NCBI RefSeq assembly: GCF_014466955.1
Contig: NZ_AP023396.1
Location: 7,378,001 to 7,442,000 of the forward strand
Length of the DNA: 64,000 nt
Direction: 5' to 3'
Origin: Nocardia wallacei
Lineage (GTDB): Bacteria; Actinomycetota; Actinomycetes; Mycobacteriales; Mycobacteriaceae
Shown here: positions 10,574 to 23,820 of the stretch, in pieces
How the letters are laid out: each line of letters starts with the position of its first letter
Numbering within the stretch: position 1 is the first letter of the stretch
The notes under the pieces: model-generated
What the model was told of the DNA's origin: nothing
Seen by the model: only the letters and a program-made list of their open reading frames with translations
Databases searched by the model: none
Translations under genes and position numbers: made by a program

Positions 10574-11770
10574 CTATGTCACCAGCCGGGCCGCGGCACG
10601 GGCAATCGCCAGTTCCTCGTTGGTAGGGACCACCAGCACCGCGACCTCTGCGCCGTCCGGTGAGATGTACCGCGCCGCACGGTCTTTCGCGGCATTACGG
10701 TTCGGATCGACGGAGATGCCGAATCGTTCCAGCCCGGCCAGCGCGTCAGCCCGCACCCGGACATTGTTCTCCCCGACCCCGGCGGTGAACGTGATCGCGT
10801 CCACCCGGCCCAATTCCACCAGATAAGCGCCCAGGTAGCGGCGCAGCCGGTGCACGTAGACCTGGTAGGCGAGCCGCGCCGCCCGGTCCCCGGAGTCGAT
10901 GAGCCGGAACAACTCCCGGAAGTCGTTCACCCCGGACAGGCCCTTGATCCCCGAGTCGCGATTGAGCAGGTCATCGATGCCGTCGATGTCGAGTCCGGCC
11001 GTCCGCGCGAGGTGCGGGATGATCCCCGGATCGATATCGCCGGAGCGGGTGCCCATCACCAGCCCCTCCAGCGGCGTGAGCCCCATGCTGGTGTCCACCG
11101 CCCGGCCGCCCCGGATCGCCGACGCCGAGGCGCCGTTGCCGAGATGGAACACGATCTGGTTCAGATCCTCCGGGTCGCGGCCCAGCAGCCGTGCCGCCTG
11201 CTCCGAGACGTACTCGTGGGAGGTTCCGTGAAACCCGTATCGGCGAATTCCGTGCGCGGCAGCAACTTTCGCGTCTATCGCATAGGTCTTGGCGGCGTCC
11301 GGCAGGCCGTGGAAGAACGCCGTATCGAACACGGCGACCTGCGGGACATCGGGCAACAGCGCACGCGCCGACTCGATCCCGGTCACATTCGCCGGATTGT
11401 GCAGCGGCGCCAGCGAAGACAGCTCATCGATCGAACGCACCACCGCGTCGTCGATCAGCGTGGGCCGGTAGAAGACCTCACCGCCGTGCACGACGCGATG
11501 CCCGACCGCCGTCAGTCCCGCGGCGGCCAGATCCTGGCCGGAGCGGGCGAACAGGTCGAACACGATCCGCAGCCCGGCCGCGTGGTCGGGCACGGCGCCG
11601 TGGTGCTCGAGGGTGCGCCCGGCACTGTGATGTTCGACCGTGGGCGCGTCCGAGGCGACCTGCTCGCCGATCCGGGACACCAGCCCCGACGCCGCCACCG
11701 CTGCCGAATCCGGGTCCAGCAGTTGATATTTGATCGACGAGGAACCCGAGTTGAGCACCAGGACCTGCAT
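10574..11770 (-). CDS. ackA: Acetate kinase
   Basis: A 398-residue ASKHA-fold kinase interconverting acetyl phosphate/ADP and acetate/ATP. Signatures: [16 protein letters not shown] at the start, [26 protein letters not shown] and [14 protein letters not shown] near the end. The ATG at 11770 is used because the motif begins at residue 2. It lies about 100 bp downstream of pta on the same strand, forming the usual acetate overflow/assimilation pair, and converges tail to tail with pknG with an 18-bp gap. Same arrangement as Rv0409. Confidence 0.97.
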
Positions 11771-11871
11771 CGCACGCCTCCTGTCCGCCACGGAACTCCG
11801 TTCCGGGCAACGCCGGGAATCTGCCGCTCATTCCTGCCGGGTCGTTCCGGGCAACGCCGCTAATCCGCCGC

Positions 11872-13956
11872 TCATTCCTGCCGGGTCCGGGCTTGCGCCT
11901 GGATGGCGGTGATCGCCACGGTATTGACGATGTCGGCGACCAGGGCGCCGCGCGACAGGTCGTTGACCGGCTTGCGCAGGCCCTGCAGCACCGGCCCGAT
12001 CGCCACCGCGCCCGCGCTGCGCTGCACCGCCTTGTAGGTGTTGTTGCCGGTATTGAGATCGGGGAAGATGAAAACCGTTGCCCGCCCAGCCACTTCGGAG
12101 TTCGGCAGCTTGGCGTCGGCCACCGTGGGCTCGATCGCGGCGTCGTACTGGATCGGCCCCTCCACCAGCAGCTGCGGCGCTCGCTCGTGCACCAGCTTGG
12201 TGGCGGTGCGCACCTTGTCGACATCGGCCCCGGTGCCGGACTCGCCCGTCGAATAGGACAGCATCGCGATCCGCGGTTCGATGCCGAACTGGGCCGCGGT
12301 GCGCGCGGAGGAGATCGCGATGTCGGCCAGTTGCTCGGCCGTCGGGTCCGGCACCACGGCACAGTCGCCGTAGGCCAGCACCCGGTCGGCCAGGCACATC
12401 AGGAACACGCTGGACACGGTGGACACACCCGGCTCGGTCTTGATGATTTCGAACGACGGCCGGATGGTGTGGGCGGTGGTGTGCGCGGCGCCGGACACCA
12501 TGCCGTCGGCGATGCCCTTGTACACCATCATGGTGCCGAAATACGAGATGTCGGTGATCAATTCGCGGGCGCGCTCCACAGTCATGCCCTTGTGCGCGCG
12601 CAGCGCGGCGTACTCCTCGGCGAACTCGCCGCACAGGTCGCTGGTGCGCGGGTCGAGGACCTGCGCGGCGTCGATGTCGACATTGAGTTCGGCCGCGCGC
12701 CCGCGCACCACGGCCTCGTCACCGAGGATGGTCAGGTCGGCGATCTTGCGCTGCAGCACCCGGCCGGCGGCGCGCAGGATGCGGTCGTCGTCGCCCTCGG
12801 GCAGCACGATCCGGCGGCGGTCCGCGCGGGCCCGCTCCACCAGCTGGTACTCGAACATCTGCGGGGTCACCACGACCGACGCCCGCGGCACCGCGACCAA
12901 TTCCAGCAGCCGGGGACCGTCCACCCGCTGCTCCATCAGCGCCAGCGCCGTGTCGACCTTGCGGATGCTCGACAGCGACACCCGGCCGCGGGTGCGGGCG
13001 GCGGCGTTGGCGGTGTCGAAGGTGCCCAGTGTGGTGGTGAGGATCGGCAACTTCGGCTTCAAGCCCTGGATCAGCCGCGCGATCGCCGGGTCGGGCAGCA
13101 TGTCGCCGTTCATGATGATGCCCGACAGCGACGGAAAGCCTTCCGCCTCATGGGCGTTCACCAAAGCCAGCAGCGCGTCCGAGCGGTCGCCGGGCACGAT
13201 GACGGCCACGCCGTCGGTCAGCCGCTCCAGGATGTGCTCGGCCGTCATGCCGCCGACCATGACCGACAGCGCCTCGCGCTGCATCAGTTCCGGGTCGCCG
13301 GAGTACAGCTTGCCGTCGATGGCCGTGCGCAGCTCGGTCATGGTGGGCGCGGTCAGCAGCGGCACCTCCGGCAGCGTCCACACCGGCGGGCCGACGGCCG
13401 CCACCGCGGCGGCGATCTCGTCGAGCCGGTCCGGGTCGCAGCGGTTGACCACGATGGCCGTCAACTGGGCGTGCTCCTGCGCCAGTTCGTCCTCGCACAG
13501 CTCGGCGACCTGAACGATCTGCTCGGGAGTGCGGCCGGAGCCGCGCAGCACCAGCAGCACCGGCGCGCCCAGGTTGACCGCGATCCGCCCGTTGTAGCGC
13601 AGCTCGCTGGGGCTGGCCACGTCGGTGTAGTCGCTGCCGACCACCACCACCGCGTCGCAGACCCTGGCGACCTCGTGGAACCGCATCACGATCTCGCTGA
13701 TCGCCGCGTCCGGATCGGCGTGCACCTGCTCGTAGGTGACGCCGCAGGCCTGCTCGTAATCGATGTCGGCGGTGCAGTGCTCGAGCAGCAGCTCCAGGAT
13801 GTAGTCGGGTTCCGTCGCCGAGCGCATGATCGGCCGGAACACCCCCACCCGCGGTGTGGTCGCGGACAGCAGCTGCAGCGCCCCCAGCGCCACCGTCGAC
13901 TTGCCGGTGTCGCCCTCGAGCGAGGCGATGTACACGGTGGACGGAGTATCGGCCAT
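11872..13956 (-). CDS. pta: Phosphate acetyltransferase
   Basis: A 694-residue long-form Pta, which makes acetyl phosphate from acetyl-CoA and phosphate. The N-terminal part is a P-loop/BioD-like region (VYIASLEGDTGKSTVALG), followed by a DRTGG regulatory domain. From about residue 365 comes the catalytic PTA_PTB domain with motifs RIVLPEGDDDRILRA and PDLNTGNNTYKAVQ. The start at 13956 is the ATG giving MADTPSTVYIASLE; the frame runs open to 14100 but into the divergent gene's region. In M. tuberculosis fgd1 lies directly upstream on the same strand; here fgd1 is about 8.9 kb away. Confidence 0.97.
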   Translation of the reverse strand: MADTPSTVYIASLEGDTGKSTVALGALQLLSATTPRVGVFRPIMRSATEPDYILELLLEHCTADIDYEQACGVTYEQVHADPDAAISEIVMRFHEVARVCDAVVVVGSDYTDVASPSELRYNGRIAVNLGAPVLLVLRGSGRTPEQIVQVAELCEDELAQEHAQLTAIVVNRCDPDRLDEIAAAVAAVGPPVWTLPEVPLLTAPTMTELRTAIDGKLYSGDPELMQREALSVMVGGMTAEHILERLTDGVAVIVPGDRSDALLALVNAHEAEGFPSLSGIIMNGDMLPDPAIARLIQGLKPKLPILTTTLGTFDTANAAARTRGRVSLSSIRKVDTALALMEQRVDGPRLLELVAVPRASVVVTPQMFEYQLVERARADRRRIVLPEGDDDRILRAAGRVLQRKIADLTILGDEAVVRGRAAELNVDIDAAQVLDPRTSDLCGEFAEEYAALRAHKGMTVERARELITDISYFGTMMVYKGIADGMVSGAAHTTAHTIRPSFEIIKTEPGVSTVSSVFLMCLADRVLAYGDCAVVPDPTAEQLADIAISSARTAAQFGIEPRIAMLSYSTGESGTGADVDKVRTATKLVHERAPQLLVEGPIQYDAAIEPTVADAKLPNSEVAGRATVFIFPDLNTGNNTYKAVQRSAGAVAIGPVLQGLRKPVNDLSRGALVADIVNTVAITAIQAQARTRQE

Positions 13957-14093
13957 GATCGAGAGCCTAGTAACCGAGCCGCCGCCTGGGTGACCGTGAA
14001 GTAGCAAATTTCCGGAAATCACAATCCGGCGGCCGGTGCGTCGTGTCGTCGCGGCGCCGGAATCGAATGCGGCGCCGCATGGTTGCACGCCGC

Positions 14094-14897
14094 ATGACAC
14101 TCGAGATCGGCACCATCCTCCCCACGTCGACCCCCGACCCGGGCCGTCCGATCCTCGGCGACGTGCGGGCCGCGGCCAGGTTCGCCGAGGAGGTGGGGCT
14201 GGATTCGGTGTGGTCCACCGACCACCTGATCGCGAGCGCGCCGATGCTGGAGAGCACCGCGGTGGTGGCCACCGCGGCCGCGGTCACCGAACGGATACAG
14301 GTCGGATTCGGGGTGCTGCTGCTGGCGCTGCGCCCACCGGCCTGGGTGGCCAAGCAGGTGGCCACGCTGCAGTACCTGTCCGGCGACCGGATCGTACTCG
14401 GCGTCGGCACCGGCAACCCCGCGCACGGCGACATCGGCTGGCGGGCGGCGGGCCAATCCTTCGCCGGCCGCGGCCGCCGCACCGACGAGGCACTCGCGAT
14501 ACTGCCGGACCTGATCGCCGGACGGACCGCCACCCTGCCCGACGGCACCGAGGCAGCGCTGTCGCCCGGCGCCACCGTGCCGCCGATCCTGGTGGCGGGC
14601 AACGGCACCGCCGCGCTGCGCCGCGCCGCGACCTACGCCGACGGCTGGATCGGGCTCAACCCCGATATCGACGAATTGGCCGGTCTCACAGCCGAATTGG
14701 CCGAGCTGGCGGCCGAGCGGAGCCGCCCCGTGCCGGCGGTCACCATCGTCGCGGCTCCGCCGGACGACCTGGCGCAGGCCGTCGACAAGCTGTCCGCGTA
14801 CGCCGCGGCAGGCGTCACGCGCGTGATCGTGCCGCCGCGCGACGCCGACTGGAAGGCCGGATACGAATTCGCGGCGAAGGTGAAGTCGGCCTTGTGA
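14094..14897 (+). CDS. LLM-class (luciferase-like) F420/flavin-dependent oxidoreductase
   Basis: A 267-residue bacterial-luciferase-fold protein. It starts MTLEIGTILPTSTP, then DSVWSTDHLI, VGFGVLLLALRPPAWVAKQ, DRIVLGVGTGNPAHGDIG and PPILVAGNGTAALRRAA, the usual order of the family. The ATG at 14094 is preferred to the upstream one at 14043, which adds an Arg-rich tail. These enzymes oxidise or reduce small substrates with F420 or FMN; with fgd1 and a Ddn-type protein nearby, F420 is the likelier cofactor, but this is inference. It is divergent from pta over about 137 bp. Confidence 0.85.
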   Translation: MTLEIGTILPTSTPDPGRPILGDVRAAARFAEEVGLDSVWSTDHLIASAPMLESTAVVATAAAVTERIQVGFGVLLLALRPPAWVAKQVATLQYLSGDRIVLGVGTGNPAHGDIGWRAAGQSFAGRGRRTDEALAILPDLIAGRTATLPDGTEAALSPGATVPPILVAGNGTAALRRAATYADGWIGLNPDIDELAGLTAELAELAAERSRPVPAVTIVAAPPDDLAQAVDKLSAYAAAGVTRVIVPPRDADWKAGYEFAAKVKSAL

Positions 14898-14964
14898 ATC
14901 GGGTTGGGGACCCGTCCCGGCATCCGAACCCGACACTCGGGCGCTTCGCCGTAGGATGCCACGC

Positions 14965-15474
14965 ATGGCGGCACAGTTCCCGGACAGGCAGTGGGGGTCG
15001 CGAACGAGCCCACTCGGCCGCATGGCCGGTCCCTTCGCGGCGTCGAAACTCGGTTCCCTGATCGTCCGCAAACTCACGCCCCTAGACCGCAAGGTGCTCG
15101 AACGCACCCGGGGCCGGTACACCGTACTCGGCCCCATCGGCGCCCCGGTCATCCTGCTGACCACCACCGGCCGCAAAACCGGCCGCCCCCGCACCTCCCC
15201 GCTCCTCTACGTACACGACGGCGACACCCTGTACGTCATCGGCAGCAATTTCGGCCGACCCCACCACCCGGCATGGACGGCCAACCTACTCGCCACCCCC
15301 ACCGCCACCGTCACCATCGCAGGCGAACGAATCCCCGTCCACGCCGCCCCGATCGAAGACCCCGCCCAAAAAGAAGAAATCTTCACCCGCTTCGTACAAA
15401 CCACCCGCGCCTACGCCACCTACCGCACCCGAACCACCCGCAACCTCCGAATCTTCGCCCTCACCCACGCTTGA
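14965..15474 (+). CDS. Deazaflavin (F420)-dependent nitroreductase family protein, Ddn-like
   Basis: A 169-residue split-beta-barrel protein. The core motif TTGRKTGRPRTSPLLYV, followed by YVIGSNFGRPHHPAWTANL, is the F420 phosphate-binding signature of the Ddn/Rv3547 family. The ATG at 14965 has a TAGGA eight bases upstream; another ATG at 14956 is possible. Members reduce quinones, nitroimidazoles or other activated double bonds with F420H2, which Fgd1, encoded 7 kb away, regenerates. The physiological substrate is not evident. The last third uses mainly C-ending codons, in contrast to the low-GC gene that follows. Confidence 0.88.
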   Translation: MAAQFPDRQWGSRTSPLGRMAGPFAASKLGSLIVRKLTPLDRKVLERTRGRYTVLGPIGAPVILLTTTGRKTGRPRTSPLLYVHDGDTLYVIGSNFGRPHHPAWTANLLATPTATVTIAGERIPVHAAPIEDPAQKEEIFTRFVQTTRAYATYRTRTTRNLRIFALTHA

Positions 15475-15557
15475 CCGGTGACCCAACCCCTGACAGGTCT
15501 CGCTCGCTAAATCTTCGGCTGGTAATCTGAGTCAGCAGGGACTCCGTGGAGGGGACG

Positions 15558-15956
15558 ATGAATAATCCCGGCATAGACTTCGGCCAAGCCGAGATAGAAG
15601 CGTTCAACAACGCCGCAGCTACAGGCAGCGTTCACTACGATGAAAATGCCGTTCGGCAGGCAGCACAGTTGTACCAGAATGCAATCGACACCTTGGTGGA
15701 AACCCGAACCAAGCTGTCCTCCATTCAAGACAACAGCGGATTCGGCGGATTTCGAACCGGTCAGGAACTACAGCAGGGTTTCTCAAACAAAGCCCGTAAC
15801 GGTGTAGCGGTTATCAATCAGCTTATCGACGGCGCCATGCGCTTACAGGAAGCGTACCTGCGAGCAGGTGGGCTGATCGATGAGGCAGACAGGGTAAATT
15901 CGGACAGGTTGAAGATTGCATCGAAGTCTGCAGGAATGGGGAGTGGGCTCGCGTGA
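15558..15956 (+). CDS. Small helical ESX-associated-like protein
   Basis: A 132-residue protein predicted to be all-helical, with no signal peptide. The pattern around residues 68-106 (GFRTGQELQQGF, then helical sequence to LIDEADR) resembles the second helix of WXG100/EspC-type proteins, but there is no W-x-G and no clear YxxxD/E secretion motif. GGAGGGG lies just before the ATG at 15558. Its stop overlaps the GTG start of the DUF3558 lipoprotein, so the two form one unit. Lower GC than the genome average suggests recent acquisition. Function unknown; secretion by an ESX system is only a suggestion. Confidence 0.65.
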   Translation: MNNPGIDFGQAEIEAFNNAAATGSVHYDENAVRQAAQLYQNAIDTLVETRTKLSSIQDNSGFGGFRTGQELQQGFSNKARNGVAVINQLIDGAMRLQEAYLRAGGLIDEADRVNSDRLKIASKSAGMGSGLA

Positions 15957-16561
15957 AGAAACTGAAAGCAGTAGCCCTTTCGATTCCCGTCATCGTCATT
16001 TTGTGTGGTTGTCACCATGACACGCACGACGCGGAGTCGCCGAGTTCTCCCAGCAGTCAGCAGCCGAGCATCAGCGTTTCGGTCGAATCCGCACCCGAAC
16101 AGGATCCCGCCGGCAGACCACCGGTAGGCTTCGACCCGTGCTTCAGGATCGGTGACGCGCCAGTCAGCAGAGCCGGGTTCGACCCCAGCACACGAGAGCG
16201 CAGCGACCAGCTGCATACTGGCTACGCCTTCATCGGGTGCACTTTCGAACGCAAAGAGCAAGTTCGTGGCACAATGCACAGAGTAGGCTCCTTAACGATA
16301 TCCTCGACTGACATAACTTTAGACCAATTCCGAGAACGCGAGCGTCGCGAAGGAACCGTAGCCACCGAAATAAATGTAAACGGTCGCGAGGCGATCTTAT
16401 ACAAACGGCCGGAAGGAGAGGCCTGCTTCGTGGTGATGAAAGGCCCAGATGCTGCTATCGACCTGCAGATCGATAGCAGCGCTGCCCTCACCCAATGGAG
16501 TGCGTGCGATCATGCGCAAGAAATCGCAGCGATTATCGAACCTGAGCTCCTCGGCCATTAA
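15953..16561 (+). CDS. DUF3558-family lipoprotein
   Basis: A 202-residue lipoprotein. The signal peptide ends in lipobox VILCGC; after it comes a Ser/Pro-rich spacer, then GFDPCFRIGD, AGFDPSTRERSDQ and GCTFER, the cysteine-bearing pattern of DUF3558 proteins found only in mycolic-acid actinobacteria. The GTG start overlaps the previous stop (GTGA). The gene holds at least three TTA leucine codons, which are rare in such genomes and agree with its low GC. Family function is unknown; the protein should sit on the outer face of the cytoplasmic membrane. Confidence 0.8.
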   Translation: MKKLKAVALSIPVIVILCGCHHDTHDAESPSSPSSQQPSISVSVESAPEQDPAGRPPVGFDPCFRIGDAPVSRAGFDPSTRERSDQLHTGYAFIGCTFERKEQVRGTMHRVGSLTISSTDITLDQFRERERREGTVATEINVNGREAILYKRPEGEACFVVMKGPDAAIDLQIDSSAALTQWSACDHAQEIAAIIEPELLGH

Positions 16562-16614
16562 TACTCTGCACGACGGTACACCAGTATCGTTGCAATGGCG
16601 CCGAAAGCCTGAGC

Positions 16615-17364
16615 TCAGTCTGTCCAGCCCGGTGTGAACGGCTCAATTCTCGGCGGCTCGGTTTCAGGGCGTTCGAGCGTAGCCGATGGCTGATCACCGC
16701 CCCAGCGTGATCTCGCCCAAGGCATGCAGGAGTCGCGATAGTTGTTCAAATCATACTGATAGTTGACATAAATCGAGCGGTTGAATACGTCGCGCTTCGG
16801 CCGGGAGCTTCTGCCAGTTGGTCCAGGAAGTTGCGGGCCACTCGGCACCTTGACCACTCGCGGTGCGTCAGCCTTCTCCAACGGAGTATCGGACAACTGG
16901 ATCGCTATCGCCTCCAGCGTTTCTTTACGGTTCTGAGGATTGGGCACCGGATACTTTCCATCAACCTTCGTAGCGGTCATGCTCATATCCTTGCAAACGA
17001 TCATCCCGTCCTCTATCGGCGTTCGGTACGGCACAATATGTAGATACGCCGTGCCGACACCTTCCGACTCGGGATGCGGTCTCAACACGTCGGGCTCTAC
17101 CGCAGTTCCAGGATTATCGAACCACCCCGGATATCCATACTCGAAATTCAGAAACTCCGCGATAGTGTTGCTCTCGACGGCCGCCCGCACCATCTGCACT
17201 GTGCTGGACTCCAGATCGATATCTCCTTCAGCTGACCATCGGAAAGATATCGACCATGGAGTTGATCCGGGATCCTCGACACCAAAACCACATGAGGGCA
17301 TGACAAAGACTGAGCATGTCGCTAGGACGAGGCGGAAAATAGTGTTGCGTCGATACAATTTCAA
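16615..17364 (-). CDS. Putative lipoprotein of unknown function
   Basis: A 249-residue protein with a basic N terminus, one hydrophobic segment (residues 10-23) and a cysteine in VMPSCG that could be a weak lipobox; the -3 residue is Met, not Leu, so simple secretion is also possible. The mature part contains KYPVPNPQNRKETLEAIAIQ and two later cysteines, and matches no domain I know. The start overlaps the stop of the 840-residue gene by 4 bp, so it is the third gene of a minus-strand operon. Its 3' end converges with the DUF3558 gene. It is AT-rich for this genome. Confidence 0.65.
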   Translation of the reverse strand: MKLYRRNTIFRLVLATCSVFVMPSCGFGVEDPGSTPWSISFRWSAEGDIDLESSTVQMVRAAVESNTIAEFLNFEYGYPGWFDNPGTAVEPDVLRPHPESEGVGTAYLHIVPYRTPIEDGMIVCKDMSMTATKVDGKYPVPNPQNRKETLEAIAIQLSDTPLEKADAPRVVKVPSGPQLPGPTGRSSRPKRDVFNRSIYVNYQYDLNNYRDSCMPWARSRWGGDQPSATLERPETEPPRIEPFTPGWTD

Positions 17365-19883
17365 TGCCCCCTCAGTACCGCACTCTTGTATTCGTCCAAA
17401 GAACTTGTATAATCCCCAATATTATGGCGATTTTCCAGAGTTGACTCCCGGAATGCAGACAGATTGATATCAAGTCCATCCATCCACGCGTCCGCGGTCG
17501 ATTGAAAGGCCTTCGTGGCGTGAAAGTTCTGTTCAGTGCCGGCCGTACCGACAATATCGGTATAACTTTTCAATCGTCCGTTCTCGAGCCAGTCCGAAGG
17601 AAATGCTCCCGCGCGAGCGGGTATTTTCTCGAAGAAATTTGGATCTTGTGTCGACAATGCTTGGAGCATTGAATAGTGACGTTGAGCCAGGAGGTCGGTC
17701 TGCGACAGCTTCTGCTGAGCTTCCGGAATTCCCGCATACTCCGGCTTGACTTGTTCCGAAATTATCTTCCCTGCCGAATCCACAGCTATATCGGCTATCG
17801 GGTTGAACTTATCTCCTGCTGCTGTCGACAGGGCACCGGCAGCGAGATCAATATACAGTTTCTTGCGACCCGCCGCGTCCTCTGCCACCTCCTTGGCATC
17901 CAATCCGCGGTCGAATGCTTCGGCCCGTAGTCCTTGTTCTTGGTAGGCCATCAATCGTCCAGCAGCTTCCGCGTACTGGTTACGATCGTTCGAAGGTTGA
18001 CCGGATAGTAACGCGTATTGTGCCGCGTATTCGTTCGTCTTGGCGATCATGGCGGTATTCCAGGCGCCAGACGAAACCTGGTCAGTATTGAAGAGGGTCG
18101 ACAGACGAACGGCTTGCAGATCGCGGGCTTCGATATTGCCATCGCGCAGATGAAAATCAGGAGTATGGTTCGCGGGGGCACCGGCAATGTTGTCGAGATA
18201 CGGAACCATGGCACCAGTCAACTGCTGGGTGAGGCCGGGATTGACCTGCCCGAGAGACTGGTTGTCGTGGCCCGGCATGTTCATCAAGGCCGCAAAAGAC
18301 CCGAGCTGCCCCTGTTTCCCCCCTGCATCCGAAGTCAGGATAGCCGCGAGCCCCGAGGCCGCATGTCCGGCGAGCCGCGATTGCTCCTGCGTGACCGCCG
18401 GGTGTCCGTCGGTGGCCGGATGGGGCACGGCGTCTTCGCCGATCCAGTCGAACAGTTGTGGGGGCTGCTTGCCGTTCGAGTCTTCCCAGTCGAACTGGAG
18501 CAAAGGCTGGATGACCTTTTTCGGATCGTAGCCGTCCTCGACGGGCGGGCATCCTGGGACATCCTCGCCGGTGAGCAGCTGGGTCATGGCTGCATGGTTT
18601 CGACCGGATACCTCCAAGTAGTCCCGCATGATGCTCTCGGTGTCGGACTTGTCGGGCATACCCGGAACACCCGGACCACCCAGTCCGCTCGCCCAGCCGA
18701 GGTGGGCGGCTTGCCGGGTGAGCTCACGGGAAAATTCGGTACCGGGCTCATAGCCGGGGTCGGCCTCACCGAGCAAGTCGCTCAGACGGCGGCTGTCATC
18801 GAAGAACCGATGCTGCGCTGCCAGCTCATTTTCCGGAGGCGACGACGGATAGAACTGTGAATTGCCGTCGGGTCCACCGACGCGGGTCGATATGACTTTG
18901 CGGAGGTCTTCGGGAAGCTGCTGATAGCTGCCCGGAGACTGCAGGGTGCCGTCCGGATTACGCCCGGTGCCGACGCGTTCGTTGGATACGAGCATGAGTC
19001 CGTTGGCGAGAGCGTCTCTGCGCCCAGCCGCCAACGGGTTCCCGGCTTGCTCCTGGCCCTCGAGATGCTCACTGAGCGTGAGAAGCCCTTCCTTCCCGGC
19101 GCCTTGATAGAACGCTCGGTAGTACTGCTGAGTGGAAGCCGGCACAGTCGAGACTTCTTTGCCGTCCGCGAGATCCCGGAGATCCTGCTCACTGAGCATT
19201 CCCTGCGGCAGGTGGCCGGCAATCTCGTCCAGCTTGGCTGTGTCGATAGTTCCGTCCGGGTGCACCGCATCACGAACGGCTTTGCCGTCCTCATAGCCGA
19301 GCTTGCCGGTGTCGGCAGGCACGACAGCAGCGTCGATACCGTTGCCGATCAGATCACCGCGCGTCCGGACCTGTTCCGCCGCCGCGGTGACAGCTGTCGA
19401 CACATCGCTGATGGCACCGGCGAAACTGTAGTAGGCGGCGTTGATCAGTCCTTGGTGATGATCGACTCGATCCTTGACTTTCTGCAAGTCCGCGCGGGTG
19501 ATGTTGCCGCGCAGGACCGCCTGCCTCGTCTGAACTTCCCACCGGTCGGTTACCTGAAGGGGAAGGGGCGATTCCGTGTCGTTCTCGGCATCGGTGACCT
19601 TGCCGAGCACGATCCGCCGCTCGTCGGCGAGGCGGGACGCCGCTCCGCGTAGCGCCGCGGCAACGGCACGGACCTCCTCCGACAACTTGCGGCCCTCGGT
19701 GTACTCCGCGCTGAGCCGGTTGTAGGCGGCGTCACGAGCTGTGCCCGACCACGGCGTTCCCTGGAATTGGCCGACCATGCGTCCGAGCTGGGTCTCATAC
19801 GCGCCGATGGCAACCTCGATCTCGGTGGCCCAGGCGGAAAGCCTTCCGGTATCCCACTTTTCGGCTTCACCACGTGTCGGCAT
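17361..19883 (-). CDS. Large WxG-domain protein (TPR repeat region family-like)
   Basis: An 840-residue, mainly helical protein without signal peptide or membrane helices. The first 100 residues look like an ESX substrate helical hairpin: WDTGRLSAWATEIE, a turn with W-S-G at residues 45-47, then a second helix through ADERRIVLGKV. The rest is rich in Gln, Ala and Asp, with a YxxxY/tetratricopeptide-like feel around TQQYYRAFYQGAGKEG, and resembles the large mycobacterial hypothetical proteins annotated as TPR repeat region. No enzymatic motif was recognised. It starts on the stop of the 102-residue EspC-like gene (TGATG). The 5' half has normal GC and the 3' end is AT-rich. Probably an ESX substrate or its partner. 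Confidence 0.7.
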   Translation of the reverse strand: MPTRGEAEKWDTGRLSAWATEIEVAIGAYETQLGRMVGQFQGTPWSGTARDAAYNRLSAEYTEGRKLSEEVRAVAAALRGAASRLADERRIVLGKVTDAENDTESPLPLQVTDRWEVQTRQAVLRGNITRADLQKVKDRVDHHQGLINAAYYSFAGAISDVSTAVTAAAEQVRTRGDLIGNGIDAAVVPADTGKLGYEDGKAVRDAVHPDGTIDTAKLDEIAGHLPQGMLSEQDLRDLADGKEVSTVPASTQQYYRAFYQGAGKEGLLTLSEHLEGQEQAGNPLAAGRRDALANGLMLVSNERVGTGRNPDGTLQSPGSYQQLPEDLRKVISTRVGGPDGNSQFYPSSPPENELAAQHRFFDDSRRLSDLLGEADPGYEPGTEFSRELTRQAAHLGWASGLGGPGVPGMPDKSDTESIMRDYLEVSGRNHAAMTQLLTGEDVPGCPPVEDGYDPKKVIQPLLQFDWEDSNGKQPPQLFDWIGEDAVPHPATDGHPAVTQEQSRLAGHAASGLAAILTSDAGGKQGQLGSFAALMNMPGHDNQSLGQVNPGLTQQLTGAMVPYLDNIAGAPANHTPDFHLRDGNIEARDLQAVRLSTLFNTDQVSSGAWNTAMIAKTNEYAAQYALLSGQPSNDRNQYAEAAGRLMAYQEQGLRAEAFDRGLDAKEVAEDAAGRKKLYIDLAAGALSTAAGDKFNPIADIAVDSAGKIISEQVKPEYAGIPEAQQKLSQTDLLAQRHYSMLQALSTQDPNFFEKIPARAGAFPSDWLENGRLKSYTDIVGTAGTEQNFHATKAFQSTADAWMDGLDINLSAFRESTLENRHNIGDYTSSLDEYKSAVLRGH

Positions 19884-20191
19884 CAGTGCTGGCCTCGTCC
19901 GTGGAAGTTCATCGAATCGAGGATCTGCCCGAACTGTTCATCAGTGGTCGAGAAGACGTGGGTCGACATGTTCACCAGGCCGGACAGCGTGCGGATGCGC
20001 TCGGCGACCCGGAGCCATGCACCTTCGGTGAACTCGCCGACCTGGGCGCACACCGCGCCCAGCGCGCAGCCGGGCAGAGCGGCACCCAACTGGTCGCCAG
20101 TCGCCCGGACGTTGATGTTGTCGATCTGAGCGGCTATGTCGTCGAGTGTGGTGACTAGCTTGTTCAGTTGGTCGACGTCTGCCCTGAGCAT
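19883..20191 (-). CDS. EspC-like (DUF2580-type) small ESX protein
   Basis: A 102-residue helical protein starting MLRADVDQLNKL. It has the pattern LPGCALGAVCAQVGEF, AWLRVAERIRTLSG and a C-terminal TDEQFGQIL, which resembles the small ESX secretion-associated EspC/DUF2580 proteins of nocardiae and mycobacteria. Two cysteines in the middle could form a disulfide after export. The ATG at 20191 follows a stretch of purines; the longer open frame to 20269 is less likely. First gene of a three-gene operon with the 840-residue WxG protein, a pairing that suggests they fold or are exported together. Confidence 0.7.
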   Translation of the reverse strand: MLRADVDQLNKLVTTLDDIAAQIDNINVRATGDQLGAALPGCALGAVCAQVGEFTEGAWLRVAERIRTLSGLVNMSTHVFSTTDEQFGQILDSMNFHGRGQH

Positions 20192-20385
20192 GGTGTGTCG
20201 TCCCCCTTCTGGTAGCGCAGGCTGCCCGACCGGGCGAGCCGCGCTCGTACCGATCGCCGAACTCGGCAAGATTCTGCCAGCTCGGGTGGCGGCATCGACA
20301 TCGAATCCGTATGTGGCACTGTGTTAATCTCGTCTGGACGCTGTGATCAGCGAGTAGCGCACGGGATCGCTCAGGGGGGCGGCGA

Positions 20386-22017
20386 ATGGGTTCGACGGGC
20401 GGTCCACAACCTTCGCCGGATGCAGCAGCCCCGGCACCGGCCCCCTCGAAGGATTTCCTCACCGAAATCCACGATGCGGCAATCCAAGCCAGGATCCAGC
20501 CTTTCGCGCAGAAACTGGGTGCCTCCGAGCAGCGTGTCGGCCAGATCGACAGCAAGCTGGGCGATCTGGGCGCAGGCACCGATCCCGCCTACACCAGTAG
20601 CGACGACCACTTCCAGGGTATGTCGCACGAAGCTCTGTACGAGGCGGTGAACGGTTTCGGCGGACTGGACCCGAAGGGTCTGCAAACAATGCGGCAGGCC
20701 TGGTTCGACTGCTCGAACGAACTGGAGAACCTGTCGACGTTCACGCTCATGCTCGGTATGAACAACATCTTCGGGCACGGCCTGTGGAAGGGCACCGCGG
20801 CCGACACCGCCCAGGTAGCCTCGGAGCGATATGCGCGCGTAGCCAACCAGATCGGCCAGGTCTTCGAGTCGGTCGCGATGCGCTTGGACGGTCTGGCCTG
20901 GGCCGCGGAAGCGGTGCGCACAGCGGTGCAGCCACCGCCCGACGCGGTACCGCTCACCCCCACGTCGGACAACCCCGGCCAAGCGGTACTCCCATTGTTG
21001 CCCAATCCGCAGGCCATCGATCAGGCCGAAACACAGCGGGAGAAGGCTCGCCAAGACGCCATCCGCGCACTCGAGAGCATCTATACCCCGACGTTTCCGC
21101 CGGCAGGCACGAATGTCCCTGCCTACCTTGATGTTCCGAAAGCCACCGGCGGTGACGACGGCACCTCGACGAACGCGGGCTGGAACAACGGTGGCACAGG
21201 CCCCGGCGAGGGTCGGTCGAACCCGACCTCGGCGAGTCCTGAATCACCCGAAGCGCAAGACTCGCAGCCGCCTTCGCCGTCGGCGACGAATCCCACTGGT
21301 CTGGGACTGCCCGGGGGATTGCTGCCCAATGGAGCCGGACCCGACCCCGCACCGACAACCGCGGCGGGTGTGCACGCCGCCGCAGGCGCCCCGGGCAACA
21401 TCGCTCCAGCCGGTGATTTCGGCGGCCGGACGGCCGGCCCGTCGGTGTCCCAGCTCGGCAGCCCTGGAGACCAGCGGCCGGGTATGCCCGGAGTCGGAGT
21501 TCCCGGGGTACCCGGCGGCGATACCGGCGCAGGCTTGGCGCGCAGCACGGCTGGGGCCAGACCCGGCACCGTTCCTGGCTCCGTGCCGCACGGGGCGCAG
21601 GGCCGCAGAAACGACAGGGACGAGGAGGATCAGGAGCACCGCACTCCCGACTACCTCAAGCGCGTTCAACCGGACTGGACAGCAGGGCTTCCGGCACCGG
21701 CCGGGGTTATCGGCGCAGATGCCGTATCCGAAGGCGTCCCGGCCGACGACTCGTTCGCCACGCAGCCGGATCATGCAGCCGTACAGTTCTCGGATCGCGA
21801 TGTTGCCCGGGCATCGGCTCCGGAACCTCCGGTTCCGCCCGTCGAAGGCGTGGAGGCCACGTCATACTCGCCGGAACCCGTTGCGCGCGACGGCGGTTCC
21901 CCAGCCGCCGAGGATGCCGACGAGCCCGTCGCCACTGACGAGACACCGCGATATATCACCATCTCGGGTACGGGCCCGATGATGGAGGATGTTTCCAGCG
22001 AGAGACCCGTCAAATGA
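20386..22017 (+). CDS. PPE/WXG-like ESX substrate with long Pro/Gly-rich tail
   Basis: A 543-residue protein. Residues 20-190 are helical and contain a hairpin with GLWKGTAADTA (W134-K-G136), like the WxG turn of PPE and WXG100 proteins. From about 190 to the end it is Pro/Gly/Ser-rich and probably disordered, with a short charged patch (RNDRDEEDQEHR). GGGGGCGG precedes the ATG at 20386. The stop overlaps the start of an EspG-like gene (ATGA), and PPE proteins depend on a cognate EspG chaperone, so the pair supports the call. No canonical YxxxD/E was found. It is divergent from the EspC-like operon over about 195 bp. Confidence 0.72.
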   Translation: MGSTGGPQPSPDAAAPAPAPSKDFLTEIHDAAIQARIQPFAQKLGASEQRVGQIDSKLGDLGAGTDPAYTSSDDHFQGMSHEALYEAVNGFGGLDPKGLQTMRQAWFDCSNELENLSTFTLMLGMNNIFGHGLWKGTAADTAQVASERYARVANQIGQVFESVAMRLDGLAWAAEAVRTAVQPPPDAVPLTPTSDNPGQAVLPLLPNPQAIDQAETQREKARQDAIRALESIYTPTFPPAGTNVPAYLDVPKATGGDDGTSTNAGWNNGGTGPGEGRSNPTSASPESPEAQDSQPPSPSATNPTGLGLPGGLLPNGAGPDPAPTTAAGVHAAAGAPGNIAPAGDFGGRTAGPSVSQLGSPGDQRPGMPGVGVPGVPGGDTGAGLARSTAGARPGTVPGSVPHGAQGRRNDRDEEDQEHRTPDYLKRVQPDWTAGLPAPAGVIGADAVSEGVPADDSFATQPDHAAVQFSDRDVARASAPEPPVPPVEGVEATSYSPEPVARDGGSPAAEDADEPVATDETPRYITISGTGPMMEDVSSERPVK

Positions 22018-22781
22018 AGACCCAGACCGCCTGGATCTTCACCCCGGACGAATTCGCGTATGTATGGTCGACGGAAACCGGCCTGGACGGTGATTATCCA
22101 CATCCCATCAGCATCATCGAAACTCCTACCACTGCAACAGAATACGAGCAACTGCGCGCCGAGATCAGTACGCGCTACCCGCGCCGCGGCGATCCCGACC
22201 TCGCGGGACCGCTGCGATTGTTGACCAATCCCGACCTGCGCATCATCTGTAACGGGTGGTTTCACAACGATGACCGCCGCGTGCGCTCACAAGCCGCTGC
22301 GGTCGGTGATCTCGGGGTGATCCTCTACCAGAAGCCGGGCCGCACAGCTGATTTCGGTGGTGACATCAAACTTGTTGTCACCAGCCGACACCTGCTCGGC
22401 AGGCATATCGCTGCCACAATGCCCGCGGTACCCGCCGGCGCGCTCGGAGGGCTGGCCGGTTACACCCCACGCGTGCGCGGCGAGGAACCACCGAGTTCGT
22501 GGCTGCGCAACGATGCCGACCAGCGCCCTGTCGAGGAACGCATACGTCTCTTGCTCCGGGTGCCGCGTACGGCCCAAGGCTACCTACGCATCGACCGGTG
22601 TCTACACGACCGGCGACCGCACCCCTCCACCTACGTCAGCTGGATCGACGTCAGCGAGAACACCAGAGCAGGCGGCCGATACCTCATCGAAGTCACGGAC
22701 AACGACACCATCGTGACCGCCGCGTCTGCCGAGGACATAGCCCGCGAGATACAACGCCGAACAGAGCCTGACCCGATGTGA
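22014..22781 (+). CDS. EspG-family ESX secretion chaperone
   Basis: A 255-residue protein whose opening, AWIFTPDEFAYVWS, has the W-x-F-x-x-x-E-F pattern of EspG proteins. EspG binds the tip of PPE proteins in the cytoplasm and keeps them soluble for ESX export. Further along are VTSRHLLGRHIAATMPAVPAGALGG and a C-terminal YLIEVTDNDTIVTAASAEDIAREI, matching the beta-rich end of the family. It is translationally coupled to the PPE-like gene upstream. No ESX core genes (EccB, C, D or E, mycosin) are in the window, so it must serve a system encoded elsewhere. Confidence 0.75.
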   Translation: MKTQTAWIFTPDEFAYVWSTETGLDGDYPHPISIIETPTTATEYEQLRAEISTRYPRRGDPDLAGPLRLLTNPDLRIICNGWFHNDDRRVRSQAAAVGDLGVILYQKPGRTADFGGDIKLVVTSRHLLGRHIAATMPAVPAGALGGLAGYTPRVRGEEPPSSWLRNDADQRPVEERIRLLLRVPRTAQGYLRIDRCLHDRRPHPSTYVSWIDVSENTRAGGRYLIEVTDNDTIVTAASAEDIAREIQRRTEPDPM

Positions 22782-22812
22782 CGAATGCCCTCTGGTCGCC
22801 GGGGACGGTGGT

Positions 22813-23820
22813 TTACAGTGCCCGCAGGCGGGGGGCCAGGTCGCGTTGGAAGAGGTCGAGGAAGCGGCGTTGGTCGTGGCCGGGGGCGTGGAAGACCAGG
22901 TGGTTGAGGCCGGCGTCCACGTAGGGCTTGATGAGGGAGACGGCCTCGTCGGGGTCGCTGGCGACGATCCAGCGCTTGGCGATCTGTTCGATGGGGAGGG
23001 CGTCGGCGGCGGCCTCCATTTCGATCGGGTCGGTGATGGAGTGCTTCTGTTCGGCGGTCAGGGAGAGGGGGGCCCAGAAGCGGGTGTTCTCCAGTGCGAG
23101 TTCGGGATCGGTGTCGTAGGAGATCTTGATTTCGATCATGCGGTCGATGTCGTCGACCGTGCGGCCCGCCTTGGCCGCTCCTTCGGTGACCGCGGGCATC
23201 AGCTTCTCGGTGTAGAGGTCCATGCCCTTGCCCGAGGTACAGATGAAACCGTCTCCGGCGCGGCCCGCGTACTTGGCCACGAGGGGGCCGCCCGCGGCGA
23301 CGTAGATCGGGATACCGCCCTTGGGCACGTCGTAGATGGAGGCGCCGACGGTGTTGTAGTACTGGCCTTCGAAGCTCACTCGGTCGCCGGTCCACAGGGC
23401 GCGCATCAGGTCGACGGACTCGCGCAGCCGCCCGAACCGCTCCTTGAACTCCGGCCACTCGCCCTTGTATCCGGTGGCGATCTCGTTGAGCGCCTCGCCG
23501 GTCCCGACGCCCAGCATGATGCGGTCGGGATACAGACAGCCCATGGTCGCGAAGGCCTGCGCGATCACGGCCGGGTTGTAGCGGAAGGTGGGAGTCAGCA
23601 CCGAGGTGCCGAGCTGGATCCGCGTGGTGCGCTCGCCGACCGCGGTCATCCACGCCAGCGAGAACGGCGCGTGCCCGCCCTCGTGCCGCCACGGCTGGAA
23701 ATGGTCGCTCACCGTGGCGCTGTCGAGCCCGTGCTCCTCGACCAGCACCCCGAGCTCCACCAGCTCCCGGGGGCCGAACTGTTCCGCCGACGCCTTGTAC
23801 CCGAGCTTGAGTCCACTCAC
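22813..23820 (-). CDS. fgd1: F420-dependent glucose-6-phosphate dehydrogenase
   Basis: A 335-residue LLM-fold enzyme that oxidises glucose 6-phosphate to 6-phosphogluconolactone and reduces F420. Very close to M. tuberculosis Fgd1 along the whole length: [65 protein letters not shown] and [16 protein letters not shown]. The GTG at 23820 has AGGAG nine bases upstream and starts at the family N terminus; the frame is open to 23901. In mycobacteria it leads fgd1-pta-ackA; here pta is about 8.9 kb downstream. It supplies F420H2 for Ddn-type and LLM enzymes such as those at 14.1-15.5 kb. Confidence 0.97.

Follow-up and report, generated by a model that had tools for sequence, protein, structure and literature searches.

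An inserted ESX accessory module between DDN and fgd1 of Nocardia wallacei, with a candidate polymorphic effector and a lipoprotein-like partner

On the chromosome of Nocardia wallacei the gene fgd1 stands well apart from pta and ackA, and the DNA between them raises the question of what it is, how it came to lie there and what its genes may do. We have analysed a 64-kb stretch of this chromosome (contig NZ_AP023396.1, positions 7,378,001 to 7,442,000), called the window in what follows and numbered from its first letter. The chromosome measures 7,832,428 bp in an assembly of 7,892,862 bp in total, and for strain FMUON74 of the species the accessible part of PMC7679093 reports a plasmid of 60,434 bp. 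All three genes lie on the minus strand, with 8,859 bp between pta and fgd1, in agreement with the first-pass annotation of the window, which had placed them about 8.9 kb apart in the same orientation. It had also described the content of the interval correctly: two F420-type oxidoreductase genes (LLM and DDN below), seven ESX-linked or lipoprotein genes (C to I, 15546-22781) and no core gene of ESX, that is type VII, secretion. The seven genes form three operons with overlapping stop and start codons, C-D on the plus, G-F-E on the minus and H-I on the plus strand. We find that 15475-22812 is a recent insertion between two converging genes, DDN and fgd1, and we suggest, with a probability of roughly one half, that gene F encodes a polymorphic effector secreted by an ESX system and that the lipoprotein E is its immunity protein.

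The insertion is seen by comparison with the closest genome among those searched, G111, whose fgd1 is 99% and whose pta is 98% identical to that of the window. The two genomes align at 92-93% nucleotide identity up to 15474, the DDN stop codon, which is the left edge of the insert, and again from 22814, the end of fgd1, whose stop codon adjoins the right edge. In the empty site of G111 about 100 bp separate the ends of DDN and fgd1. Alignments with seven further relatives (G022, G012, G002, G035, G010, G005 and G023) break off at 15462-15478 and resume at 22799-22817; the right edge is uncertain by some 15-30 bases, as G035 shares DNA from 22799. Among the 39 of 147 genus relatives whose pta-fgd1 interval was read (that of L030 without its pta end), none has F, G or E there. 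The earlier proposal that a self-contained cassette of ESX substrate and chaperone type had been inserted is thereby upheld. No operon was cut, because the module sits in the gap between converging genes, and taken alone the insertion is an ordinary genomic island event; the DDN-fgd1 site serves as an example of a chromosome accepting such a module. Exact direct repeats of at least 9 bases between 15400-15560 and 22740-22860, or of at least 18 bases within 15300-23000, were not found, nor was a flanking direct or inverted repeat around the insert. By Pfam there is no integrase, transposase or relaxase among the seven inserted genes, and the 64-kb window has no tRNA gene.

The same comparison settles the order of events on the left side. 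LLM and DDN are older than the insert, since both are kept in G111, which is without it. The earlier proposal that the cassette had forced pta-ackA onto a new promoter is not supported: the two oxidoreductase genes already stand between pta and fgd1 in G111 and other cassette-free relatives, and the inserted DNA is flanked by the 3' ends of DDN and fgd1 and is not at the pta promoter. The region upstream of pta is therefore unaltered. LLM itself was not found in four of the seven aligned relatives (G022, G012, G005 and G023).

How usual a separation of fgd1 and pta is was followed through the relatives. Both genes were searched in 148 genomes of the genus, 6 of which have no fgd1 among the matches listed. 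Gaps were taken from the 116 that carry both on one contig and strand; the genes are on opposite strands in 24 and on different contigs in 2. In all 116 pta is downstream, at a median gap of 821 bp, and gaps above 6 kb occur in five genomes (G030, G156, G022, G157 and G000, the window's own). The search outside the genus covered 71 genomes of the family, of which 67 represent 30 other genera, and 54 have both genes on the same strand with pta downstream. Close linkage is probably the older state within the family, because in 102 of the 148 genus genomes pta follows fgd1 on its strand at a distance below 2.5 kb and the gap is below 200 bp in 20 of the 54 outside it, in 10 of the 30 genera. Separation has nevertheless been repeated and frequent, as indicated by 21 gaps of more than 2.5 kb among the 54, by the 24 genus genomes with opposite strands and by the other families of the order, where fgd1 and pta are far apart in all three genomes that match both. 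G156 carries its extra DNA among pta, LLM and DDN and not next to fgd1, so that the DDN-fgd1 gap is not the sole insertion site. These data bear on the idea that the module was ancestral here and was lost from the relatives. Its homologues are indeed widespread in the genus, at other places. However, the idea has to explain the lack of F, G and E in all 39 intervals, that of the 98-99% identical sister included, the short fgd1-pta gaps in a third of the other genera and the different insert that G022 carries in the same interval, and we regard it as extremely improbable.

Within the inserted module, gene F joins a conserved N-terminal part to a variable tail. The F protein of another N. wallacei (database protein P0010) is identical to that of the window in 517 of 517 residues and then falls to 59% identity over residues 520-840. 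The same pattern is seen between P0011 (N. wallacei) and P0012 (Nocardia sp. N2S4-5), with 98% identity in the N-terminal part (1-480) and 64% in the C-terminal part (520-840). The tails match crosswise: P0010 and P0012 share 85% in the C-terminal part (N-terminal part 85%), the window and P0011 78% (N-terminal part again 85%). At the boundary between residues 517 and 518 the content of guanine plus cytosine (G+C) of the gene steps from 0.64 to 0.54, and all 35 F genes examined have the lower value in the C-terminal part. A set of 24 F proteins, that of the window and 23 taken from other loci, was compared pairwise: of the 276 pairs, 264 are related in the N-terminal part, as far as residue 485 or so, and 114 only in the C-terminal part. 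By their tails 13 proteins form one group and 9 another, without a match from one group to the other, and two short proteins belong to neither. The database search scored the 7995 candidates with the most words in common; alignment A1 comprises the window's F plus 21 of 24 matches (P0009, P0025 and P0032 being left out), 22 sequences in all, and alignment A2 comprises 14, P0033 being left out.

The AlphaFold2 model of F is nearly all helix, with a mean predicted local distance difference test score (pLDDT) of 81.5, and residues 42-47 form a turn between two long helices, which we take to resemble the shape of WXG100 proteins. A WXG100 profile matches 6 of 22 F homologues at E values of at most 0.01 (best 0.0012). 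The invariant W45 and G47, the modelled turn and these profile matches together point to a WXG-type hairpin at the N-terminus of F. A Pfam match to the LXG domain was not obtained at E values up to 1.

Gene E follows the variable end of F, and it varies with it. In the four contrasts given above, E is 53% identical between the window and P0010 and between P0011 and P0012, and 79% between P0010 and P0012 and 76% between the window and P0011; its identity tracks the F tail and not the F N-terminus. The partner gene was also counted over loci after F tails had been typed by profiles. This count covers 42 of 46 rows: L067 and L071 were dropped because they lie on the same contigs as L004 and L011, L054 and L055 because they have no type (the E match in L054 scores 32 bits), and the F loci L017, L056 and L063 are left out. 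A gene of the E family stands directly after F in 15 of 21 loci with the window's tail type (type II) and in 0 of 21 with type I, whereas in 16 of the 21 loci of type I this place is taken by a different lipoprotein-like gene. L057, with a lipoprotein-like gene 188 bases further on, and L051, with a weak E match 131 bases further on, were scored as having none. The lipobox test is a permissive pattern and not a signal predictor, and the E gene of L020 is without a lipobox. Six type I partners were compared with Pfam; those of L013, L014 and L016 match DUF3558 and those of L003, L004 and L007 have no match. Two consecutive E-like genes follow F in Prescottella subtropica (L064 12400-13928) and in Rhodococcus spelaei (L069 12514-13973). 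The E protein itself is modelled with confidence as an alpha/beta domain after a disordered leader (pLDDT 82.7), with no usable match to solved structures and no Pfam immunity model. The lipoprotein-like gene that follows F in L012 (11415-12506) and L018 (10296-11390) encodes about 363 amino acids and matches roughly the last quarter of TPR_23, as if part of the effector repeat had been recruited into the partner.

We therefore read F and E as effector and immunity protein because of the gene order, the joint divergence of tail and lipoprotein, the extra partner copies and the low G+C of the variable part. A conserved N-terminal part joined to an exchangeable tail, with a downstream partner that varies with the tail, is also the layout of polymorphic toxins. 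In the mechanism that we propose, the module would be a recently acquired ESX accessory unit in the DDN-fgd1 gap, in which G would act as the EspC-like partner of the effector. The WXG-like hairpin and the TPR_23 region of F would form the export part and the C-terminal 320 or so residues the exchangeable active part, while E would protect the producer by binding the tail outside the membrane. H-I and C-D would supply a PPE-like carrier, an EspG chaperone, a WXG-like partner and a DUF3558 lipoprotein, and the resident ESX machine with an EspG gene, 1.8 Mb away on this chromosome, would serve for export. For the differences between strains we infer recombination that swaps the F C-terminus and E together. 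The target of F would be the cell envelope or the membrane, because its presumed partner E is lipoprotein-like.

Several observations weigh against this reading. The F tail has no Pfam toxin family and no usable fold match to solved structures, there are only two broad tail types, fewer than in classic polymorphic toxins, and P0010, compared at the protein level, may come from another chromosomal place. The MPSC lipobox of E is not canonical, and of the 21 loci of each tail type, 5 of type I and 4 of type II have no lipoprotein call adjoining F. At the place of the YxxxD/E export motif the window's G has FSTTD, and the window's C has no such motif. The pairing of F and E for database proteins was inferred from contigs of equal size. 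In the six closest F-E sets (15 pairs) the C-terminal part correlates with E at rho 0.50 (p 0.059) and the N-terminal part at 0.17; over all eight sets (28 pairs) both parts correlate with E, at 0.62 and 0.50. The pairwise statistics alone are thus modest; a stronger signal comes from the comparison across species. The Fisher p of 1.1e-6 for the association of E with tail type takes loci as independent and ignores shared descent, and several of the loci are from one genome. The main weakness is that the F tail and E are adjacent, so that a single recombination tract would carry both whatever E does; linkage and common ancestry may account for some of the covariation.

Much of this would also suit an inserted ESX substrate cassette whose F is a surface antigen or an effector directed at eukaryotic hosts or at grazing protists, with E as a surface partner or anchor and the variation of tail and E driven by selection from host recognition. 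According to the accessible part of the literature N. wallacei infects people, TPR_23 takes its family name from EspA-like proteins of ESX-1, and EspG and PPE-like genes are part of the module. What speaks for immunity instead is that E comes directly after the variable part, that the type of downstream partner tracks the type of F tail across species, Rhodococcus and Prescottella included, and that E-like genes occur in pairs in L064 and L069, as extra immunity genes do. A host-directed F is in our view unlikely, although it deserves to be kept in mind.

The module has a paralogue on the same chromosome (L021, about 1.064-1.071 Mb), with all seven genes in the same order; F is 73% and EspG 75% identical, and three DNA blocks align at 68-75% within 15539-22753. 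F and EspG occur together with C or D in 15 of the 77 loci L001-L077, where L052 counts by weak matches and some loci may be one species in two collections. Other loci, including those of Rhodococcus and Prescottella, have F with E and mostly with G and show no EspG match. TPR_23 matches were found in 27 of 60 relatives searched and in 26 of the 36 within the genus, with 0-6 matches each. This distribution also bears on the idea that F, E, H and D build an envelope or export structure, such as a channel or scaffold specific to the cassette, in which the parts co-vary by contact and no toxin is involved. The mostly helical F with its long repeat-like middle, a module that combines a PPE-like gene with two lipoprotein-like ones and the mere two C-terminal types would agree with a structure. 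However, the patchy occurrence of TPR_23, the sharp joint between an identical N-terminus and a divergent tail and the low G+C of the variable part fit conflict genes better, and a purely structural role seems rather improbable to us.

The first-pass annotation had noted that the cassette has no ESX core gene, and the genome-wide search that it called for finds core loci at other places: the chromosome has two EccB genes, one near 4.96 Mb and one near 5.64 Mb. The latter adjoins genes for EccA, an FtsK/SpoIIIE ATPase, PE, PPE, EspG and EccD and is the likely export machine, since these genes are gathered there. Against the two EccB genes stand 11 EspG genes, and several of the other EspG genes adjoin WXG-like, DUF3558 or PPE-like matches. 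The presence in Nocardia of this ESX locus at 5.64 Mb (L041, G000:C1:5625001-5645000), with EccA, PE, PPE, EspG and EccD, contrasts with the accessible part of PMC11217815, in which ESX-4 is the sole type VII system of non-mycobacterial members such as Nocardia and Gordonia. In genome G006 (L017 11795-13596) another module copy ends in EspG facing an LLM-type oxidoreductase gene (33% identical to fgd1), an arrangement that resembles the window's.

The proposed pair has counterparts among known systems. The polymorphic LXG toxins of the type VII systems of Bacillota (T7SSb), which have Lap partners and immunity genes (TelC/TipC, EsaD/EsaG and TspA/TsaI, for example), likewise show a helical export part, an upstream small partner, a variable C-terminus, a partner gene at the variable end and extra partner-gene copies. 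The accessible parts of PMC9484751 and PMC10730906 describe this gene order, the variable toxin part and multi-copy immunity genes, and a predicted lipoprotein signal for TipC. Unlike them, the window's F has no LXG match, carries a TPR_23 middle, lies in an ESX setting with EspG and PPE-like genes and has two tail types only, and its toxicity is a prediction. In TslA/TilA of Staphylococcus aureus a T7-linked effector adjoins a variable, often multi-copy lipoprotein, TilA being the immunity lipoprotein (PMC10730906, accessible part). However, TslA is a phospholipase with the reverse domain order, whereas F is variable at the C-terminus and has no recognised fold, and E has no Pfam family and so is not DUF576 by the Pfam test. 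The mycobacterial EspG-PE/PPE and EspA/EspC/EspB substrates share with the module EspG, PPE-like and EspC-like genes and an F in a Pfam family named EspA-like; in contrast, the EspC and PPE matches of the window are below cut-off, the module lies away from an ESX core, it contains DUF3558 and E lipoproteins, and the C-terminus differs between strains. Polymorphic toxin systems, including the actinobacterial ones led by WXG or PPE domains, have a modular N-terminal trafficking part, an exchangeable C-terminus and a partner gene as well, but neither the F tails nor E match Pfam toxin or immunity models. In the accessible part of PMC3482391, which may list the family earlier, Imm65 is apparently the sole lipoprotein among the immunity proteins of that collection.

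In the open-licence literature of PubMed Central (PMC) we found no description of an EspG- and PPE-linked TPR_23 effector with a tail-matched lipoprotein and none that ties DUF3558 to type VII secretion; its accessible part gave nothing relevant on orphan EspG or PPE genes of Nocardia, on a 'TPR repeat region-containing protein' or on WXG100 polymorphic toxins of Nocardia.

Work on the ESX systems of the mycobacterial group has dealt chiefly with their role in host interaction; good descriptions of antibacterial toxins exist for the T7SSb of Bacillota. We tentatively propose that Nocardia and related mycolic-acid bacteria may use EspG-bearing ESX systems in bacterial competition, with TPR_23 proteins as polymorphic toxins, surface lipoproteins as immunity proteins, dispersed EspG/PPE/WXG modules that move between sites, and tail and immunity gene exchanged as a unit. 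If this were true, the mycobacterial relatives of the G-F-E trio would be antibacterial and not only host-directed. An EspG-linked effector with co-varying tail and lipoprotein would offer a concrete example, open to testing, of bacterial competition by ESX outside Bacillota.

Table 1. Features of the pta-fgd1 interval and its flanks, in window positions
Feature	Position	Strand	Evidence
ackA, acetate kinase, left flank	10574-11791	-	PF00871, TIGR00016
pta, phosphate acetyltransferase, left flank	about 11872-13956	-	PF01515/DRTGG, NF004167
LLM-class F420-dependent oxidoreductase, predates insert	14097-14897	+	PF00296, 143 bits; G111 copy 92% identical
DDN-type F420H2-dependent quinone reductase family protein	14956-15474	+	PF04075 (F420H2_quin_red), 102 bits; G111 copy 94%
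Inserted segment, about 7.3 kb	about 15475-22812	.	absent from sister genome G111
Gene C, WXG100-like protein of 136 amino acids with F-G-G-F turn, probable small partner	15546-15956	+	adjoins D in module homologues
Gene D, DUF3558 lipoprotein	15953-16561	+	PF12079, 67.4 bits; lipobox-like LCGC; 4-base overlap with C
Gene E, lipoprotein-like protein of 249 amino acids, proposed immunity protein of F	16615-17364	-	signal-like N-terminus with MPSC; overlaps F stop by 4 bases
Gene F, TPR_23 protein of 840 amino acids, proposed polymorphic ESX effector	17361-19883	-	PF23275 ('EspA-like'), 213 bits
F residues 518-840, variable C-terminal part, G+C 0.54	17361-18332	-	first P0010 difference at 518
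F residues 1-517, conserved, WXG-like hairpin and TPR_23 region, G+C 0.64	18333-19883	-	517/517 identical to P0010
F W45-S46-G47, WXG motif in turn between two long helices	19743-19751	-	W45 and G47 the same in all 22 aligned sequences
Gene G, EspC-like small partner	19883-20191	-	PF10824, 13.8 bits, below cut-off 23.5
Gene H, PPE/EspB-like protein of 543 amino acids with W-x-G motif	20386-22017	+	PF00823, 14.1 bits, below cut-off 26
Gene I, EspG family chaperone	22014-22781	+	PF14011, 62.3 bits, cut-off 27; overlaps H stop by 4 bases
fgd1, right flank	22813-23820	-	Bac_luciferase; 99% identical in G111

The remaining genes of the module (Table 1) agree with an ESX cassette to differing degrees. 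Gene I has a clear match to the EspG chaperone family. Among the candidate substrates of Esp or PPE type, the TPR_23 match of F is strong, the PPE match of H and the EspC match of G stay below their cut-offs, and C has none; neither C nor E has a Pfam family at cut-off. The W.G motif is present in 17 of 19 H sequences. The stop of G and the start of F share one base, a G-like gene accompanies F in 18 of 21 and 15 of 27 loci with an F match in two locus sets, and a canonical YxxxD/E occurs in the last 45% of 9 of 33 G sequences. For D and E the label ESX-linked follows from linkage, since both are lipoprotein-like.

A few observations concern the insertion site and its surroundings in other genomes. 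The empty site of G111 (L078 5622-5723) forms a perfect hairpin with a 14-bp stem between the converging genes, and stems of at least 10 bp are present in the DDN-fgd1 gaps of four of eight relatives (G111, G010, G115 and G090); terminators of converging genes may be favoured landing places. Protein-kinase-domain matches, about 30% identical to that of pknG, lie between DDN and fgd1 in L024, L025, L084 and L087-L090, and Pfam confirms a protein kinase in L084 only. The different insert of G022 between fgd1 and DDN (L022 2107-10499) encodes a secretory lipase and regulators of the TetR and helix-turn-helix DUF5753 types, and it continues with a distantly similar set of WXG-like, DUF3558, PPE-like and EspG genes without F, G and E. 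The same interval thus holds two different ESX-type cassettes in two species.

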